The notes under the pieces were generated by a model that was not told the DNA's origin, ran no database searches, and saw nothing but the letters and a program-made list of their open reading frames with translations. This document shows positions 4,471-28,724 of a stretch of DNA of 37,684 nt, piece after piece; positions within the stretch are counted from its first letter, which is position 1, and each line of letters begins with the position of its first letter. The translations under genes were made by a program, and so were the position numbers. The stretch comes from Singulisphaera sp. GP187. Lineage in GTDB: Bacteria; Planctomycetota; Planctomycetia; Gemmatales; Gemmataceae. Location of the stretch: assembly GCA_945905925.1 (NCBI GenBank), contig CAMDQN010000064.1:1-37684 (forward strand). The letters run 5' to 3'.

Positions 4471-4597
4471 CGCGTTGTCATTGGTCATTCGTCATTGGTC
4501 CTTCGCTGGTATCCGCGGGTGCAACCGCAGCGATCTGAGCGACTGGATCGTGACAGAGGGCCCATGACAAAGGACCCATGACAAAGGACCAATGACG
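4471..4597. repeat. Inverted repeat plus 14-bp tandem repeat before the ATPase gene
   Basis: GTCATTGGTCCTT (4491-4503) is exactly complementary to AAGGACCAATGAC (4584-4596); a related GTCATTGGTC also begins at 4477. The right arm sits in a 14-bp tandem repeat (CCATGACAAAGGAC at 4562-4575 and 4576-4589). The inverted repeat includes the first possible start codon (4592) of the ATPase gene and could hide it in a hairpin. Confidence 0.85.
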
Positions 4598-4600
4598 ATG
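4564..4600 (+). promoter_or_regulatory. Chain of overlapping start/stop codons leading into the ATPase start
   Basis: ATG at 4564 opens MTKDP and stops at TGA 4579-4581, which overlaps the next ATG at 4578. That opens MTKDQ and stops at TGA 4593-4595, overlapping the ATG at 4592 of the ATPase frame. Each unit also carries AAAGGA, a ribosome-binding-like sequence. From the last AAAGGA (4583-4588) the spacing suits the ATG at 4598 (9 nt) better than the one at 4592 (3 nt). A role in translational coupling is inference. Confidence 0.4.
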
Positions 4601-5329
4601 CTGATCGCCGAGAAACTCGAAAAGACGTACCGCCGGCACGCCGTTCAGGTGCGGGTGCTGAACGGCTTGGATCTCGAAGTCAAAACCGGCGAGTTTCTGA
4701 GCATCGTGGGCGCGTCTGGCTCCGGGAAGAGCACGCTGCTGCATCTGCTCGGAACGCTCGACGCGCCGGACGGCGGGCGTGTTGTGTTCGACGGCAAGCG
4801 CATCGACAACCTACCGGCCCGTGAGCGTGACGCGTTGCGGAACCGCACGTTCGCTTACATCTTCCAGTTCTACCACCTGCTCCCCGAACTCAACGCGCTC
4901 GACAACGTGTTGATGCCCGCGTACATCGCGCACTCGACGTTCAACTGGTGGCAGTCGCGTGCGCAGTGGCGCCAGCGCGCCGAAGACCTGCTCAAGAAGG
5001 TGGGTCTGGGGCACCGACTCCAGCACCGGCCCCGCGAGTTGTCCGGTGGCGAACTGCAACGCGTCGCCATCGCGCGTGCCCTCCTGATGAACCCTCGCGT
5101 GCTGCTCGCCGATGAGCCGACCGGGAATCTGGACGCGGAGTCCGGTGGCGAGATCGTGCGATTGTTGCGAGACATCAACCGCGAAGAGGGCGTGACGATC
5201 GTGATGGTTACGCACAACCTGGAGATCGTGTCCGCGACGGATCGCGTCGTGCGTATGGTCGACGGCGTCATAACGGAGGACACGCCGGCCCCGCGCCTGC
5301 CCTTTCACGCGCGGTTAGCGGCCGTATGA
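4592..5329 (+). CDS. ABC transporter ATP-binding protein, LolD/MacB type
   Basis: 245 residues with every ABC ATPase motif: Walker A GASGSGKST (40-48), Q-loop Gln92, signature LSGGE (150-154), Walker B LLADEP (171-176), D-loop NLD and switch His208. The sequence around YIFQFYHLLPELNALDNV is typical of the LolD/MacB/FtsE branch that pairs with FtsX-type permeases, agreeing with the permease gene immediately upstream. Together they should power extraction or export of a cell-envelope substrate. Start at ATG 4592, with ATG 4598 an equally good candidate in the same frame because it is better spaced from AAAGGA. Confidence 0.92.
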   Translation: MTMLIAEKLEKTYRRHAVQVRVLNGLDLEVKTGEFLSIVGASGSGKSTLLHLLGTLDAPDGGRVVFDGKRIDNLPARERDALRNRTFAYIFQFYHLLPELNALDNVLMPAYIAHSTFNWWQSRAQWRQRAEDLLKKVGLGHRLQHRPRELSGGELQRVAIARALLMNPRVLLADEPTGNLDAESGGEIVRLLRDINREEGVTIVMVTHNLEIVSATDRVVRMVDGVITEDTPAPRLPFHARLAAV

Positions 5330-7436: not shown

Positions 7437-7803
7437 CCGTGGACCTTCCGGCCCGCGGGGCGCGTTACTGCGATCGAATGGTGGGATTGCCGTGACTCCT
7501 GTGACCAAAGGGAAGGTTCCGCGAACGGACGCACCCGCGCCCCGTTCCGCGCAACCCTTAACACATAACTCTTAACTCGCCGTCCTAACGTCGTCAACGG
7601 GGAATGTGGTCAGTGTTCAGTTTTCAGTTTTCAGTCAGAAATGCCCGACGCGCGTTCTTGTTGTGTGGCTGCGTTTCAGACTGAAAACTGAACACTGCAA
7701 ACTGAACGCGAAAACGGCCCTTGCCGTGCGCCGCGCCCGTGTCGAGAATGGCGCGTAGTCCCGCCGAACGTCTCTTCTCTCGTTCCGACTCCCTGGAGGC
7801 ACC
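7437..7803. other. Divergent intergenic region upstream of infC and the peroxiredoxin gene
   Basis: 367 nt between divergent starts. No gene is seen. It should hold promoters for both neighbours, but none stands out. Its centre is occupied by the 18-bp inverted repeat at 7611-7697. Confidence 0.5.
7611..7697. repeat. 18-bp perfect inverted repeat with 51-nt loop
   Basis: CAGTGTTCAGTTTTCAGT (7611-7628) is exactly complementary to 7680-7697. Extra CAGTTTTCAG-type units around both arms give internal direct repeats. It lies between divergent genes, so it cannot be a transcription terminator for either. Confidence 0.88.
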
Positions 7804-8378: not shown

Positions 8379-8426
8379 CCGCGATTCAACGACCAAGGTT
8401 TTGAGACCATGGTCGTTGAATCGCGG
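8379..8426. repeat. 17-bp perfect inverted repeat after the peroxiredoxin gene
   Basis: CCGCGATTCAACGACCA (8379-8395) and TGGTCGTTGAATCGCGG (8410-8426) form a perfect 17-bp stem with a 14-nt loop, 17 nt past the peroxiredoxin stop. It could stop transcription, but no U run follows. Confidence 0.85.
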
Positions 8427-9403: not shown

Positions 9404-10402
9404 GTGGCCGACGAAATTGTCTGCCGTGAGTGCGACGAGCGTATCTCGGTGCGCGCGGACGACCGTGCCCGAGGGATGACGTGCCCCGCGTGCGCGGCGC
9501 TGGTCCTCGCCCCAGAACCGGGGGCGAAGCCAAAGCCGAAGCCCAAGCGAAAACCGCAAGACGAGGACGAAGACGAGGACCGCCCCACGCCGACGAAGGT
9601 TCAACCGGGGTCAAAACCGCAACCGCGGGACGAACAGTTCCCCTACGACGAAGACCCGCCCGAGCCGCCGAAAGGCCCACCGCCGCACCCGCTCCTCGTG
9701 CTCGGCTGTCTCGCCTTCTTCGTGGGGTTCCTTGTCTTGTGCGTGTTTGCGTACGGAGGGGTGAAAGAGAATGGTCGGGCGGCACAGAAGGCGAAAGCCG
9801 AAGCGGAGGCGGCACGCCGAAAGCCCCGCGCTCCGCTCGGGGAACTGAACCCCGCACCAGCACCGAACAACCCGCCGGAGCCGAAGACGCTCGCGGTCGA
9901 ACCCGGCACCGGGTTGCCGGGGTTCACGCCCCCGTTCGACATCGATCCGCTTCTCGAAAAACCGGACCGCCCGGTGTACCTCGCGGACATGCAAGCGTTC
10001 GGCGTCGAACTCGGGCCGTGGAAGTTCGGGAAGGGCGAACTCGGCAACGGTGACCTCACGTCGATCAAGGTGCGCGAGCGGCTCGCGCCGAAGGGGCTGA
10101 GCGTCCACCCGCAGAACCGGCAGACGACGCGGGTCGCCTACGCTCTTGGTGGCAAGGCGAACACGCTGACCGGGGCCGCGGGGTTGAACGACGGAACCCA
10201 CCCGGCCTTCGACTCGGTCGTGTTCACAGTCGTGGGCGACGGCCAAGAACTGTGGCGCTCGCCGCGGGTGACACGCGAAAGCGGACCGACCGCGTTCCGC
10301 ATCGACGTTAGCGGCGTGCAGGTGTTGGAACTGCGCGCAACCGCGCAAGGCTCGCACTGGGGCATGCACGCGGTTTGGATCGACCCCGTCATCGAGAAGT
10401 AA
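9404..10402 (+). CDS. Zinc-ribbon, single-pass membrane protein with extracytoplasmic NPCBM-like domain
   Basis: 332 residues in four parts. First, a zinc ribbon (Cys7, Cys10, Cys27, Cys30). Second, a charged linker with KPKPKPK and DEDEDED runs. Third, one membrane helix (about 96-117). Fourth, a C-terminal domain (about 190-332) resembling NPCBM carbohydrate-binding modules, with GLSVHPQN, LNDGTHP, VVFTVVGDGQELWRS, IDVSGVQVLELRA and HAVWIDP. NPCBM domains bind glycans and are very frequent in planctomycetes. The topology suggests a cytoplasmic zinc finger linked to an outside glycan sensor or anchor (inference). GTG 9404 is chosen because GGAGG lies 6 nt upstream; the open frame further left is poor. 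Confidence 0.78.
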   Translation: MADEIVCRECDERISVRADDRARGMTCPACAALVLAPEPGAKPKPKPKRKPQDEDEDEDRPTPTKVQPGSKPQPRDEQFPYDEDPPEPPKGPPPHPLLVLGCLAFFVGFLVLCVFAYGGVKENGRAAQKAKAEAEAARRKPRAPLGELNPAPAPNNPPEPKTLAVEPGTGLPGFTPPFDIDPLLEKPDRPVYLADMQAFGVELGPWKFGKGELGNGDLTSIKVRERLAPKGLSVHPQNRQTTRVAYALGGKANTLTGAAGLNDGTHPAFDSVVFTVVGDGQELWRSPRVTRESGPTAFRIDVSGVQVLELRATAQGSHWGMHAVWIDPVIEK

Positions 10403-11368: not shown

Positions 11369-11502
11369 AAGAGAAGGGGCAGCGGTAAGAGAAGGGGTGA
11401 AGGGGAGAAAGGGAGACAAGACATCAGCATTGCCGGGCTGTCTTTGGCACCCTTTCTCCTCTTCACCCTTTCGCCCCTTCTCTTACCGCTGCCCCTTCTC
11501 TT
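11369..11502. repeat. 29-bp perfect inverted repeat with 76-nt loop
   Basis: Positions 11369-11397 (AAGAGAAGGGGCAGCGGTAA...) are exactly complementary to 11474-11502, and further partial pairing (GAGAAAGGG with CCCTTTCTC) extends inward. The purine-rich left arm faces the pyrimidine-rich right arm. It lies between the EF-hand-like gene and rpsR. Confidence 0.9.
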
Positions 11503-11844: not shown

Positions 11845-11869
11845 TGCCGAAGCGGGAAAAGTAAAAGGT

Positions 11870-11918
11870 AAAAGAGGAAGAGAAGACGGAACACCTTCCG
11901 GTCTTCTCTTCCTCTTTT
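11870..11918 (+). terminator. 18-bp hairpin after rpsR, candidate terminator/repeat
   Basis: AAAAGAGGAAGAGAAGAC (11870-11887) pairs perfectly with 11901-11918, loop 13 nt. The right arm ends in TTTTT, so the RNA would form a stable stem followed by a U run 26 nt after the rpsR stop. It also belongs to the purine/pyrimidine palindromes seen at other junctions. Confidence 0.6.
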
Positions 11919-11995
11919 TACTTGTACTTGTCTTCAAACCTGTGTTCATCTGCGTCATCTGCGGATCAAACTCTTCCCCTTCTTCCGAGGTACCG

Positions 11996-20564: not shown

Positions 20565-20879
20565 GTGTTCACCCTGTTCGCGAACGGCGCACCGTCCCCG
20601 TACCCGCGTCCAGACGCCCCCGCAATTGAGTGGGTTATCTGGGGCGGGTGCATGGGCGCTGCGGCGCTTCTGGGCGGGTGGAGCCTGCTCAACCGGGACC
20701 GTCCCCAACGGGACGCGCTCGTTGGCATGGCACTCTTGGGCGCCATCGTTCTCATCGCGTCCGCCACAGTGTTCGTGATGCAACGGGAGTGGGACCGAGA
20801 GCAGGAGCGCAGCCGCCAGGAATGGCAAGACAAACTCAACGAGTTGGAGCGAGAAACCCGGGAGCGGTCGCACCCGTGA
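20565..20879 (+). CDS. Small two-helix membrane protein of unknown function
   Basis: 104 residues. Two hydrophobic helices (about 22-42, WVIWGGCMGAAALLGGWSLL, and 52-71, LVGMALLGAIVLIASATVFV) are followed by a strongly charged tail (REWDREQERSRQEWQDKLNE) that should form a helix or short coiled coil. No family is recognised. GTG start 2 nt after the preceding stop suggests joint transcription and coupling with the thioredoxin-fold gene. Confidence 0.65.
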   Translation: MFTLFANGAPSPYPRPDAPAIEWVIWGGCMGAAALLGGWSLLNRDRPQRDALVGMALLGAIVLIASATVFVMQREWDREQERSRQEWQDKLNELERETRERSHP

Positions 20880-20901
20880 GTCGCACCCGTATCATGCCGG
20901 A

Positions 20902-23409
20902 ATGAGCTTCTCTCGTCTCTTACTCCGGCTCGCGCTCGGCCGCCGGCTTCCCATTACGTCCGGTGAGTTGCGCGTGCGCGGAGTGTCTGCACCCGTCACC
21001 GTGCGGCGCGACAAGTGGGGCGTCCCGCACATCGACGCGGAGACCGATGCGGACGCGCACTTCGCGCTCGGGTTCTGTCAGGGACAGGACCGGGCCGGGC
21101 AACTCGAAGTGATGTTGCGGCTCGGACGCGGCACGCTGGCCGAGTGGGTCGGCGCGGACGCACTGCCAGCGGACCGCATGAGCCGGCACGTCGGGTTCCG
21201 GCGCGCCGCGGAGGCACAGCACAAGGTACTCGACGCCGAGGCGCGGTCCGCGTTCGAGGCGTTCGCTGCGGGGTTAAACGCGGGTGCCATTCAAGGATTA
21301 CCGCAGAAGCCGCACGAGTTCGCCATCGTGGGCGGTGTGCCGTCGGCGTGGGACGCGGCCGACGTTCTCGGCATGCTCAAGATGATGTCGTTCCTGCTGC
21401 CGTCGAACTGGGACGTGGAACTCGCGCGACTGCGGATTCTGCTGGCCGACGGGCCAGACGCGCTGACGGCGCTGGATCCGGTTCAAGAACCTCTCCCCCA
21501 AACCCCCTCCCCCAAGAAGGGAGGGGGAGTTGGAGTTGAAAGCCCCTCCCTTTTTAGGGGAGGGGTTGGGGAGGGGTCGCTTCTCGATCAACTCCTCTCA
21601 GATCTCAGCGCGCTTCAAGCGTTCCTTCCGCCCGGTGGTGGGTCGAACAACTGGGCAATTTCAGGCTCGCGCACCGCGTCCGGGAAGCCGCTTCTCGCGA
21701 GCGACCCACACCTCAGCCCAACGTGCCCGCCGCCGTGGTATCTGGCGCACGTCCGCACGCCGCGGTGGGAAGTCGCGGGCGCGACGCTGGCCGGCACGCC
21801 GGGTTTCCCCATCGGACACAACGGGTTCGCCGCGTGGGGCGTCACCGCGGGACTCACCGACAACTCGGACCTCTTTCTCGAAACGCTTGGCTCCGACGGC
21901 CGCTCTGTGCGCCAGGCGGATGGTACGTTCGTCCCGTGCGAAGTGTTGAAGGAAGTCATTCGCGTAAAGGGCGCGCCCGACGTGACGGACGACGTGCTGA
22001 TCACGCCGCGCGGACCGCTTCTCACGCCGCTGGTTCCCGATGTGAAATTCGCCATCTCGCTCTCCGCGACGTGGCTCGAACCCAGGCCGATTGTCGGGTT
22101 CCTTCACGCTCCGACCGCGCGCTCTTTTGAAGAGTTCCGTGCGCCGTTCGCTTCCTGGCCCGCCCTCCCGCTGAACGTGCTCTACGCGGACGCGGGCGGC
22201 ACCATCGGCTGGCAACTGGTGGGCGAAGTGCCGACGCGCCGCGGCGGTCGCGGTCTGTTGCCACAACCCGCCGACGCGCCCGATTCCGGCTGGACCGGCA
22301 CAGTGCCGTTCGAGCAGATGCCGTTCCTGGCGAACCCAGAGTGTGGGTACATCGCGACCGCGAATGATGACCCGTGTTGGTCGCAAGAAAGACCTACCCC
22401 CCCGGCCCCCCTCCCTGAAGGGAAGGGGGAGAAAGAGTTGGGCGCACCGTCAAGCACGAGCGAATCGCGAGTGTCTGACTCCCCCTTCCCTTCAGGGAGG
22501 GGGGCCGGGGGGGTAGGTCCAGCGCCCTGGCTCGGTGCCGACTACATCGACCCGTACCGGGCGCGGCGCATCCGCGAGTTGCTCGCCGCACGCGACAACG
22601 GCTGGACACTCGCCGAGTGCGCCGCGCTCGCGCTCGACGTGCAATCAACCCCGTGGGCCGAAGTCCGCGACATCGTCTTGGCTCTCACGCCCGCCGATAG
22701 CGACGCGCGCATCGCGCTGGAGTTGCTCCGCGAGTGGGACGGCCGCGTGGAAACCGAGTCGCCGGCCGCCGCGGTGTTCGAGTTGTTCGTCGCGGAGATG
22801 TGTGTTCGTGTCGCGAAGGTAAAAGCGCCGAAGTCGTGGGATACCGCGATCGGCGAAGGCGCGCTCGGCATCATGCCGTACAACCTGTTCTCCGACCGGC
22901 GCGTCTCGCATCTCATCCGCCTTCTGCGCGAGCAGTCTGCGGGCTGGTTCGCTTCATGGCCGCTTGAGATGGAAGCGGTGTTAGCGTTCGTCGTGAAGAA
23001 GTTGCGACGCGAGTCGGGACCGGGACCGGGCTTCTGGGCGTGGGGGCACCTACGGCGCCTGCTGCTGGAACACTCGCTGTTGGGTAAGCACCGGTGGCTC
23101 GGCCCGGTGTTCAACCTTGGGCCGGTTCCGTGGGGCGGTGACGGCAACACCGTGAGTCAGGCCGGGGCGCGCCCGGCCGACCCGACCGCGTTCACGCACA
23201 ACATGGCGAACATGCGCACCGCGTTCGACCTCGCCGATCTGTCGAAAAGCACGTTCGTGATGTGCGGCGGGCAGAGTGGCAACCCACTCTCGCCGCACCA
23301 CGCGGACCAACTCCCGCTGTGGCTTCGCGGCGAATCGTTCGTGATGCCGTGGGACCAGGCCGACGTGATCCGCGCCGCGGTGGACACGCTGCGACTGCTG
23401 TCGGGGTAG
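20902..23409 (+). CDS. Penicillin-acylase-family Ntn hydrolase with two in-frame repeat insertions
   Basis: 835 residues. Family hallmarks: start VTVRRDKWGVPHIDAETDAD, the self-cleavage site GGG/SNNW with N-terminal nucleophile Ser248, then SGKPLLASDPHL and the late NMRTAFDLADLSKSTFVMCG plus GGQSGNPLSPHHADQ. Members cleave amides such as N-acyl homoserine lactones, beta-lactam side chains or cyclic imides; the substrate is not predictable. Two stretches unlike the family (residues 196-226 and about 497-540, EPLPQTPSPKKGGG and ERPTPPAPLPEGKGEK types) are coded by palindromic repeats, in frame. The first falls just before the cleavage site. No clear N-terminal export signal. The stop codon lies in the foot of a REP-like element. 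Confidence 0.88.
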   Translation: MSFSRLLLRLALGRRLPITSGELRVRGVSAPVTVRRDKWGVPHIDAETDADAHFALGFCQGQDRAGQLEVMLRLGRGTLAEWVGADALPADRMSRHVGFRRAAEAQHKVLDAEARSAFEAFAAGLNAGAIQGLPQKPHEFAIVGGVPSAWDAADVLGMLKMMSFLLPSNWDVELARLRILLADGPDALTALDPVQEPLPQTPSPKKGGGVGVESPSLFRGGVGEGSLLDQLLSDLSALQAFLPPGGGSNNWAISGSRTASGKPLLASDPHLSPTCPPPWYLAHVRTPRWEVAGATLAGTPGFPIGHNGFAAWGVTAGLTDNSDLFLETLGSDGRSVRQADGTFVPCEVLKEVIRVKGAPDVTDDVLITPRGPLLTPLVPDVKFAISLSATWLEPRPIVGFLHAPTARSFEEFRAPFASWPALPLNVLYADAGGTIGWQLVGEVPTRRGGRGLLPQPADAPDSGWTGTVPFEQMPFLANPECGYIATANDDPCWSQERPTPPAPLPEGKGEKELGAPSSTSESRVSDSPFPSGRGAGGVGPAPWLGADYIDPYRARRIRELLAARDNGWTLAECAALALDVQSTPWAEVRDIVLALTPADSDARIALELLREWDGRVETESPAAAVFELFVAEMCVRVAKVKAPKSWDTAIGEGALGIMPYNLFSDRRVSHLIRLLREQSAGWFASWPLEMEAVLAFVVKKLRRESGPGPGFWAWGHLRRLLLEHSLLGKHRWLGPVFNLGPVPWGGDGNTVSQAGARPADPTAFTHNMANMRTAFDLADLSKSTFVMCGGQSGNPLSPHHADQLPLWLRGESFVMPWDQADVIRAAVDTLRLLSG
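21487..21578. repeat. Palindromic repeat inserted in the penicillin-acylase gene (first)
   Basis: The left arm (CTCTCCCCCAAACCCCCTCC from 21491) and right arm (ending GGGGTTGGGGAGGGG at 21576) are imperfect inverted copies of about 37-40 nt each, meeting around GAAGGGAGGGGGAG and CCCCTCCCTTTTTAGG. All of it is translated without a stop as a Pro/Gly/Ser-rich stretch. The exact borders are uncertain by a few bases. Confidence 0.85.
22391..22519. repeat. Perfect 41-bp inverted repeat inserted in the penicillin-acylase gene (second)
   Basis: 22391-22431 (begins GACCTACCCCCCCGG) is the exact reverse complement of 22479-22519 (ends CCGGGGGGGTAGGTC), with 47 nt between. The whole unit is 129 nt, exactly 43 codons, and is translated as TPPAPLPEGKGE ... 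SDSPFPSGRGAGGVG. Each arm also contains a smaller palindrome (TCCCTGAAGGGA). Confidence 0.97.
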
Positions 23410-23513
23410 GTGCCACTTGCCGAGCGGCACGGCCCCTCAACTGCGATCACCTCAGGGCCGCCCGTCTCGCGCCACGCGTTGTGTAGCCGTGTCGCTCAGC
23501 AAGCGACACCTAC
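23406..23513. repeat. Inverted pair of REP-like hairpins (BIME-like)
   Basis: The plus-strand unit at 23406-23429 reads GTAGG, stem TGCCAC, loop TTGCCGA, stem GCGGCA (one mismatch). The minus-strand unit at 23513-23490 reads GTAGG, stem TGTCGC, loop TTGCTGA, stem GCGACA (perfect). The GTAGG feet point outward. The pair fills the space between two convergent genes, and the left foot contains the TAG stop codon of the penicillin-acylase gene. REP elements with a GTAG foot are mobilised by RAYT transposases; none is in the window. Confidence 0.82.
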
Positions 23514-23519
23514 CAAGAA

Positions 23520-24269
23520 TCACAACTTCTCAAACAACTTCGGGTCCAACTTCTCGGCTTCCTTCGCGTCGGACAGGGTACTCTCGATCAGCGTCTTGCC
23601 GTCGCGGACGATTTTCAGTTTCGTGAAGTGCTTCTTACCGTCGGACTCCTTGTAATCGGAGAAGTACGCCTCGTCGAGCACCTCTTTCCACTTCTGAAAC
23701 TCATCCTTCACGATCAGTTCCCGCTTCACCAACAGCCCGCTCTCCTTGTCGAAGTAGAGCGTGATCGGTGGCTTCTTGTCGTGCGTCACTTTCACGGCAA
23801 CGGTCGGCTTCTTGTCAACGTCTTTGCCCTTCGCGGTTGCGAGCGTGAAGTCTTTGTCCGTTAAGAGCGGCGTGAGCGCCGAAACCCGGAACTGGTACGC
23901 CTCGTTTCGCGTTTGCTCCAGTTTCTCGCCCGTGATCTCGCGCGACTTGTCGCCTTCGGCTTCCCACGCCTTCTCGCCGTTGACGACGACGGTCATGTTG
24001 ATCTTGGCATCACCGACCGTGCCGGTGAACACGAACCGGTACTTATCCGGCGACTGGAACGCCCACTCCGCAGTGTACGGCAGCTCGAACCCGCCGCCGG
24101 TGAACTTGCCCTTGTCCTTCCACGTCATCGCGCTGAACTTCGCGTCTGGCTTGTCGCCGCGCGCCTTGACCGCCTTCTCGACGATCGCCTTCGCGTCGGC
24201 TGCGTCGTCGGCCTGGGCAATTGGGGTAAGGAGAAACAGTCCCGCGAGTGGGAAGAGCGTGTGACGCAT
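23520..24269 (-). CDS. Exported LolA-like protein
   Basis: 249 residues: signal peptide MRHTLFPLAGLFLLTPIAQA, then AKAIVEKAVKARGDKPDAKF and a long series of beta strands (YTAEWAFQSPDKYRFVFTGT, INMTVVVNGEKAWEAEGDKS, ITLYFDKESGLLVKRELIVK) typical of the LolA/LppX half-barrel fold that carries lipoproteins or lipids across the periplasm. Sequence identity to true LolA is low by eye, so the function is inferred from fold-like pattern. ATG 24269 is chosen for the signal peptide and for GAGG 6 nt upstream; the frame continues 50 poor codons further. The LolC/LolD-type exporter at 2858-5329 is a possible functional partner but is far away. Confidence 0.75.
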   Translation of the reverse strand: MRHTLFPLAGLFLLTPIAQADDAADAKAIVEKAVKARGDKPDAKFSAMTWKDKGKFTGGGFELPYTAEWAFQSPDKYRFVFTGTVGDAKINMTVVVNGEKAWEAEGDKSREITGEKLEQTRNEAYQFRVSALTPLLTDKDFTLATAKGKDVDKKPTVAVKVTHDKKPPITLYFDKESGLLVKRELIVKDEFQKWKEVLDEAYFSDYKESDGKKHFTKLKIVRDGKTLIESTLSDAKEAEKLDPKLFEKL

Positions 24270-28661: not shown

Positions 28662-28724
28662 CAACGAGCCGCGACCGCCAGGGAGCGGTTTGCGTGGCCA
28701 CTCCCTGGCGGTCGCGGCTCGTTG
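28662..28724. repeat. 24-bp perfect inverted repeat between convergent genes
   Basis: 28662-28685 (CAACGAGCCGCGACCGCCAG...) is the exact reverse complement of 28701-28724, loop 15 nt. It lies between the terminator of the DUF1501 gene and the stop of the minus-strand flavoenzyme (28755), and could terminate the latter. The GAGCCGCGACCG core looks like a planctomycete dispersed repeat (from memory). Confidence 0.92.

Follow-up and report, generated by a model that had tools for sequence, protein, structure and literature searches.

Rickettsia palindromic elements (RPEs), as outlined in a review (PMC10969869), are approximately 150 bp long, comprise several families and lie within open reading frames (ORFs) in about half of the cases; the review also deals with miniature inverted-repeat transposable elements (MITEs). 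For repetitive extragenic palindromic (REP) sequences, two papers describe doublets, spacers and collapse to a single hairpin (PMC3116915), and report REPs in Planctomycetes and inside genes, with a GTAG or CGTC tag (PMC3733652). For the palindromes in mitochondrial coding genes of Nematomorpha, template switching and gene conversion have been discussed as what keeps the arms identical (PMC6649704). The 37,684-nt stretch analyzed here (contig CAMDQN010000064.1 of the Singulisphaera sp. GP187 assembly, hereafter the window) carries a 129-nt palindromic element at positions 22391-22519, inside the gene for a penicillin-amidase-family enzyme. Our preferred reading, to which we assign a probability of roughly 0.7, is that this element belongs to a high-copy, non-autonomous Gemmata palindrome family (family 1) that lives in genes, at port-like sites whose contents turn over in frame. 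The genus of the own genome (G000, a 6.47-Mb draft in 251 contigs) and of the 19 genus genomes searched was taken as Gemmata by inference. Among the papers listed in the literature searches, in which most subscription journals are missing, none gives an account of in-frame palindromes in Gemmata.

The host gene and its two cassettes are laid out as follows:

20902..23409, + strand: host gene for the penicillin-amidase-family enzyme, an ORF of 835 aa open throughout (Pfam PF01804).
About 21487..21585, unstranded: second inverted-repeat cassette, of a different family, in frame (residues ~196-228), identified by its arms, its copies and low model confidence.
22391..22519, unstranded: palindromic cassette of family 1 (129 nt), encoding residues 497-540 in the host frame, identified by its exact arms, fold, genome copies and low model confidence.
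22391..22431, + strand: left arm, 41 nt, of the long-arm type, holding the imperfect hairpin CCCCTCCCTGAAGGGAAGGGG at about 22408-22428.
22432..22478, + strand: loop, 47 nt, of the GAAAGAGTTGGGCGC type also seen in other own-genome copies by loop comparison.
22479..22519, - strand: right arm, 41 nt, the exact reverse complement of the left arm.

The two arms of the family-1 cassette are complementary at 41/41 positions with 47 nt between them, in agreement with an earlier note on this DNA that had described exact 41-nt arms at this spacing. The repeat finder stretches the pair to 46 nt at 96% and ranks it first among the 28 pairs of the window, one other pair being 2 nt longer at 90%. Folded as single-stranded DNA, the 129 nt reach -64.5 kcal/mol, compared to -26.7 (standard deviation 3.0) for 200 dinucleotide shuffles of the same sequence (z = -12.7). 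The same note had also held that the unit is free of stops, that it supplies residues 497-540 and that the enzyme otherwise looks intact, and all of this is borne out: the element contains no stop codon in the frame of the host ORF, and a Pfam search yields a Penicil_amidase (PF01804) match of 588 bits that runs nearly end to end (profile positions 1-673 of 675). The alternative frames of this copy close at a TGA in the first arm or at a TAG in the last GGTAGG and, because the arms are identical, this pattern of stops is the same in both orientations. Residue 248 of the host, a serine (codon 21643-21645, motif GGG|SNNW), aligns with the first beta-chain residue of solved penicillin and glutaryl acylases. 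In an AlphaFold model of the host protein based on 42 sequences (mean pLDDT 87.3), the only long segments with pLDDT below 50 are residues 196-225 and 497-538 (two others span 3 and 5 residues), and these two segments are the gene's two palindromes. An Rfam search of 20800-23600 gave no match.

Searching the own genome with the 129-mer gave at least 86 matches (40 of 112 candidates scored), so that the arm is multi-copy, many genomic copies being one of the supports for a mobile element that the earlier note had named. Matches were also obtained in 14/19 genomes of the genus, in 28/95 genomes of the taxonomic family and, with 2 candidates scored per genome, in 2/392 genomes of the phylum, the own genome included. 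The own-genome copies share the design AACCTACCCCCC-NN-CCCCCTCCCTGAAGGGAAGGGGGAG followed by a variable loop and the inverse, and collapsed single hairpins of about 50 nt are also found among them. In G007, a genome assembled as one contig, a strict arm pattern matched 96 times, with no match for the reversed control. The start-to-start spacing was a multiple of 3 in 28 of the 31 arm pairs formed in this genome (72, 75, 78, 81 or 135, the exceptions being 40, 76 and 79). Because much of this spacing reflects one inherited length (75, in 14 pairs), it is the changed lengths that carry the weight. On contig C81 of the own genome the same element and its flanks occur twice, at 9424 and 19887 (L063 and L064), inverted and about 10 kb apart; this arrangement is either genuine or a product of the assembly.

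The position of the copies relative to genes was analyzed in 81 clusters from four genomes, a count that excludes L064, as the inverted duplicate of L063, and the AGAAGGGG repeat matches in both loci. Thirty-two clusters have coding sequence on both sides and continue its frame without a stop, compared to 2 that are in frame with stops; the remaining clusters have same-strand flanks in different frames (7), flanks on opposite strands (6), one coding flank (25) or no coding flank (6), or lie at edges (3). Pfam matches were obtained for 27 of the 30 host ORFs scanned, and the hosts are unrelated. The element falls between two Pfam matches in eight hosts (L041, L043, L052, L054, L129, L136, L139 and L140) and interrupts a single Pfam match in others, such as L059, L061, L077 and L130. 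Family-1 copies encode a recurrent predicted peptide, PTPPAPLPEGKGE...SPFPSGRGAGGVG, and the predicted peptide of the cassette most likely has no useful role. In four pairs of same-Pfam proteins from different species (L077/L130, L129/L140, L056/L148 and L057/L152; AIRS type, PNKP ligase, DUF2344 and acyltransferase), both members have a palindrome in roughly the same position.

The arms define two subfamilies, with long arms showing five G after GGGAA and short arms showing four G or a GCAGGG centre. Among 71 of the 75 tabulated rows, the four outer pairings of G012 compound elements being excluded, 36/53 long-arm doublets were genic and stop-free, compared to 3/16 short-arm doublets, with 2 mixed (Fisher P=0.0005, after exclusion of both mixed rows and of one row at a contig edge). 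Genic copies mostly belong to the long-arm subfamily, with one open frame, and short-arm copies are mostly non-genic.

The turnover of site contents was analyzed by comparing G007 with G012, a genome in three contigs, both of them well assembled. Markers were placed beside 35 G007 doublets, sampled from 40 regions and chosen for family 1 alone, and then located in G012. All 35 sites were found, with both flanks aligning at 77-97% identity. The cassettes themselves show a median identity of 0.52, compared to 0.89 for a control flank, and the family-1 arm is missing from G012 at 24/35 sites. The mean folding z of the segments is -10.7 in G007 and -5.7 in G012, against 0.0 in the control. Furthermore, 32 of the 33 G012 segments above 40 nt (two shorter ones were left out) resemble at least one other G012 site. 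Twenty-eight of these 33 score better against another G007 cassette than against their own counterpart, with 2 scoring worse and 3 matching neither, a comparison that sets the best of 34 against one and is suggestive only. The length difference between the two genomes is a multiple of 3 at 29/35 sites, where chance would give one third (P=2.3e-9). Third-position evidence is present in both flanks of 18 sites, and 16 of these keep to a multiple of 3. The exceptions among the 35 are L121, L125, L259, L260, L265 and L266, of which L259, L260 and L265 are short-arm, L121 is classed as intergenic and L125 as edge-of-gene. At the 21 of 35 sites classed as "gene" or "gene?", the host frame is open in 20/21 cassettes in each genome, the closed case being L259, compared to 3/21 and 3/21 for the +1 frame and 1/21 and 2/21 for the +2 frame (G007 and G012, respectively). 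Because the contents differ and the lengths mostly change by multiples of 3, the sites look like ports with in-frame turnover. At two sites with family 1 in G007, G012 holds another palindrome family (GGCGAACGGCCGGCGTGAGCCGGCTGGTG) with unrelated ends (L308 and L310); at the L119/L310 site this palindrome is in a gene and in frame.

Several observations weigh against port-like sites with in-frame turnover. Coding flanks and frames were judged by a simple codon score. Perfect inverted arms of at least 12 nt are present in only 13/35 G012 segments (0/35 control flanks), and many G012 contents are therefore composites of two different hairpins. Two G012 sites are near-empty (L257 and L258, 14-15 nt) and may be deletions, and L266 is genic yet breaks the multiple-of-3 rule without explanation. 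None of the 35 site pairs showed a target-site duplication or a precisely empty site. A search for Y1_Tnp in G007 gave no match at E<=0.001 despite the many copies in this genome, and no family-1 core was found around L079 and L080, which represent two of the own genome's three Y1_Tnp hits, one of them near a contig end. Finally, in G009, the closest genome compared with G007, 31/35 sites were compared and 24 were measurable, and 7/24 length differences were multiples of 3, which is the chance level (4/14 among sites labelled genic). We set G009 aside, and repeated the frame test with G012, because G009 shows N runs (in 6/14 sites labelled genic), linker-like sequence and shortened G or C runs inside its palindromes. 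G or C runs lack single bases in cassettes that are similar otherwise (L292, L300 and L303), and in L291 and L288 N runs accompany linker-like sequence, which we take to be of the Cre-lox type. We read the G009 draft as poor at hairpins, and setting it aside is a judgement.

Sixteen orthologues of the genus reach the acylase site, 8 with an insert and 8 with a short loop, which has about ten extra residues in L018 and L030. By eye, the inserts are of family 1 in G000, G012, G007 (collapsed) and G009 (broken up), G015 has the same outer ends with another palindrome inside, G016 and G008 carry inserts of other repeat families, and G001 has a short imperfect insert. Judged in the same way, the insertion site is not virgin, other Gemmata species having other palindromes in the same loop. 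The broken penicillin-amidase copy of G009 (L015) was not used as evidence, for the reason given above. In the gene tree, the insert-free G003 (L014) adjoins the own gene with a support of 0.984. The earlier note had made its interpretation depend on relatives that lack residues 497-540, and this is what the short loop of this closest relative and of half of the orthologues provides; nor did the 31 aligned homologues include distant ones with the same residues in non-palindromic codons, and the genome search showed that the arm is not unique. Because the arm is multi-copy, the element is in frame in an intact gene and the insert is missing in the closest relative, the right reading of the window element is that of a putative RPE-like palindromic element read through in frame. 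Among the loops compared, that of the own element is nearest to own-genome loops, and not to the G012 copy at the orthologous site, which is nearest to G007/G012 loops.

Arm identity is higher within elements than between them in G000 (0.853 vs 0.715; 0/10,000 permutations as high), G007 (0.937 vs 0.913; 64/10,000), G012 (0.895 vs 0.880; 320/10,000) and G003 (n=4; 0.947 vs 0.735; 406/10,000). In contrast, 61/73 private arm changes affect one arm only and 12/73 affect both, which indicates that arms begin symmetric and then decay, with correction occurring at most occasionally. Of the two origins that had been offered for the perfect symmetry, recent insertion or ongoing correction, the within-element likeness of arms speaks for the latter, but continuous correction is weak and was rejected on the one-armed changes. 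The perfect arms of the window element suggest a young or recently renewed copy.

Each element consists of a variable loop flanked by a pair of inverted arms that are themselves small imperfect hairpins. The lengths of the long arms leave one frame open through both arms, in either orientation, and genic copies would survive when they lie in that open frame and within a loop or linker that is disordered. With time, other hairpin repeats would take the place of the resident element, with the frame kept by purifying selection: a new palindrome would land in, or recombine with, the resident hairpin, and the old one would then be lost. We infer such entry or recombination because nested forms occur, as identified by eye in L077 (own genome), L263 and L275 (G007) and L331 (G012). 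SbcCD-type breakage with ectopic repair is a possible route for this turnover. A stronger version, in which fixed intragenic ports actively swap their cassettes across sites and families and the frame is the only lasting constraint, is tentative, and we consider it somewhat doubtful; its routes could be, for example, hairpin breakage with ectopic copying from another palindrome, or palindromes homing into palindromes. Host genes seem to tolerate interchangeable hairpin inserts.

A REP-associated tyrosine transposase (RAYT) was considered as the mover by searching for Y1_Tnp in the 19 genomes and around two own genes, and linkage was not found; G008, G013 and G014 have Y1_Tnp and no element match. 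Outward arm combinations 0.2-5 kb apart numbered two in G007, both joining neighbouring complete doublets, and no transposase was identified in nine ORFs from parts between these arms, the domains obtained being MoeA and RNase H. An arm-flanked autonomous parent was not found in G007, in a search limited to close matches of the arm.

The alternative that we take most seriously, while still considering it unlikely, is that tolerant loops are repeatedly hit by independent insertions and deletions, so that selection alone mimics ports, and palindromes need be neither exchanged nor drawn to one another. It fits the location of inserts in linkers and low-confidence loops, and separate insertions would likewise place the own loop nearest to own-genome copies and the G012 loop nearest to G007/G012 copies. 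However, the sites were chosen for family 1, and 32/33 G012 contents above 40 nt at these sites also resemble other G012 sites, with only two sites near-empty; for repeated insertions into the same few nucleotides, the tolerated loops would have to be nearly saturated, and the nested forms, seen by eye, show entry into resident palindromes. It is improbable that the elements form an ordinary system of REP doublets forming hairpins (REPINs), spread by a RAYT and falling by chance into some genes. The two inverted hairpin arms, the near-fixed spacer length and the collapsed single hairpins do fit the REPIN architecture, and a GTAG string is present within the GGTAGG ends. The GTAG/CGTC tag of a REP is expected at the 5' foot of the hairpin, but the GGTAGG of the family-1 element stands at the outgoing 3' end of each hairpin. 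Furthermore, G007 combines 96 arm matches with no Y1_Tnp, three genomes with Y1_Tnp gave no match to the element, and the family-1 core was not found around L079 and L080. REPINs are also described as extragenic (PMC3116915).

A single old insertion inherited vertically, with gene conversion or template switching maintaining the identity of its arms, would account for the greater likeness of arms within elements in all four genomes tested, for the 12/73 private variants common to both arms and for the outer ends that G015 shares at the acylase site. We regard it as very unlikely, given that 61/73 private variants are one-armed, that contents at shared sites are unalike, that G003, the closest gene relative, lacks the palindrome and that G012 has, at the orthologous site, a loop that clusters apart from the own one. 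Equally slim are the odds that the Pro/Gly/Glu-rich peptide is adaptive, as a flexible linker or through a protease or mRNA-hairpin function, and that cassettes are kept for it: both families in the host gene encode Pro/Gly-rich predicted peptides (PTPPAPLPEGKG..., SPSLFRGGVGEG...) in linkers, and one cassette lies shortly before the processing site, but 8/16 orthologues are insert-free at the acylase site, the hosts are unrelated and contents differ freely between species. Least credible of all is an assembly artefact in which hairpin repeats are misplaced in drafts. The own genome is indeed a draft of 251 contigs, and palindromes of G009 contain N runs and linker-like stretches; the pattern, however, is strongest in the one-contig G007 and the three-contig G012, and misassembly would not yield frame keeping at 29/35 sites.

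The second cassette of the host gene has arms at 21495-21526 and 21543-21574 that are 81% complementary according to the repeat finder, sits shortly upstream of the alpha/beta processing point of the enzyme, and matches the own genome at least 81 times, with 40 scored out of 213 candidates. Elsewhere in the window, more repeat-rich inverted repeats are found at 4472-4601, 7610-7707, 11369-11502 and 11856-11932, with the types ATTGGTC, TCAGTTTTCAGT, AGAAGGGG and AAAAGTAAAAGG; the insert that G016 (L011) carries at this position of the acylase gene looks like the TCAGTTTTCAGT kind. Near-perfect inverted repeats with short loops, terminator-like or of another family, lie at 28662-28724 (27-nt arms) and 8379-8426 (21-nt arms). 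No long open frame was found at the inverted repeats 4472-4601, 11369-11502, 11856-11932 and 8379-8426.

In-frame palindromes were already known from Rickettsia; here they reach dozens of copies per genome in large planctomycete genomes, with coexisting coding-compatible and mostly non-coding subfamilies and with site contents that vary between sister species, for the most part without loss of the frame. The family offers a testable case of palindrome entry into genes without a visible transposase and of selfish DNA as a source of disordered protein segments, and annotators should be aware that a loop in a Gemmata protein may stem from a repeat. If true, active exchange would amount to frame-locked cassette shuffling that continually rewrites disordered loops across the proteome.

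MITEs are defined as short, non-autonomous, multi-copy elements with inverted repeats, and family 1 resembles them in each of these respects. It may part from MITEs in that no target-site duplication was resolved among the 35 site pairs, none of which has a precise empty site, and that the searches of G007 gave no autonomous parent. With the mitochondrial palindromes of Nematomorpha (PMC6649704), it shares perfect inverted repeats within translated genes that are gained and lost between species; the arms of the former encode conserved protein, whereas the Gemmata inserts form a dispersed family and are missing in relatives. The likeness to the REPIN and REP-RAYT systems (PMC3116915, PMC3733652) extends to the inverted hairpin doublet with a spacer, the collapsed singlets and the high copy number; unlike REPINs, the Gemmata elements are largely intragenic and frame-bound (36/53 long-arm doublets genic), and no linkage to a RAYT was found. 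The comparison with RPEs that the earlier note had put forward holds up well at the level of behaviour: in both cases (for RPEs, PMC10969869), short multi-copy palindromes lie in unrelated genes, are read through in frame and encode a conserved peptide. The Gemmata elements differ in being GC-rich and residing in a large planctomycete genome. Unlike RPEs, furthermore, they have one open frame set by arm length, and sister species hold different repeats at the same sites.

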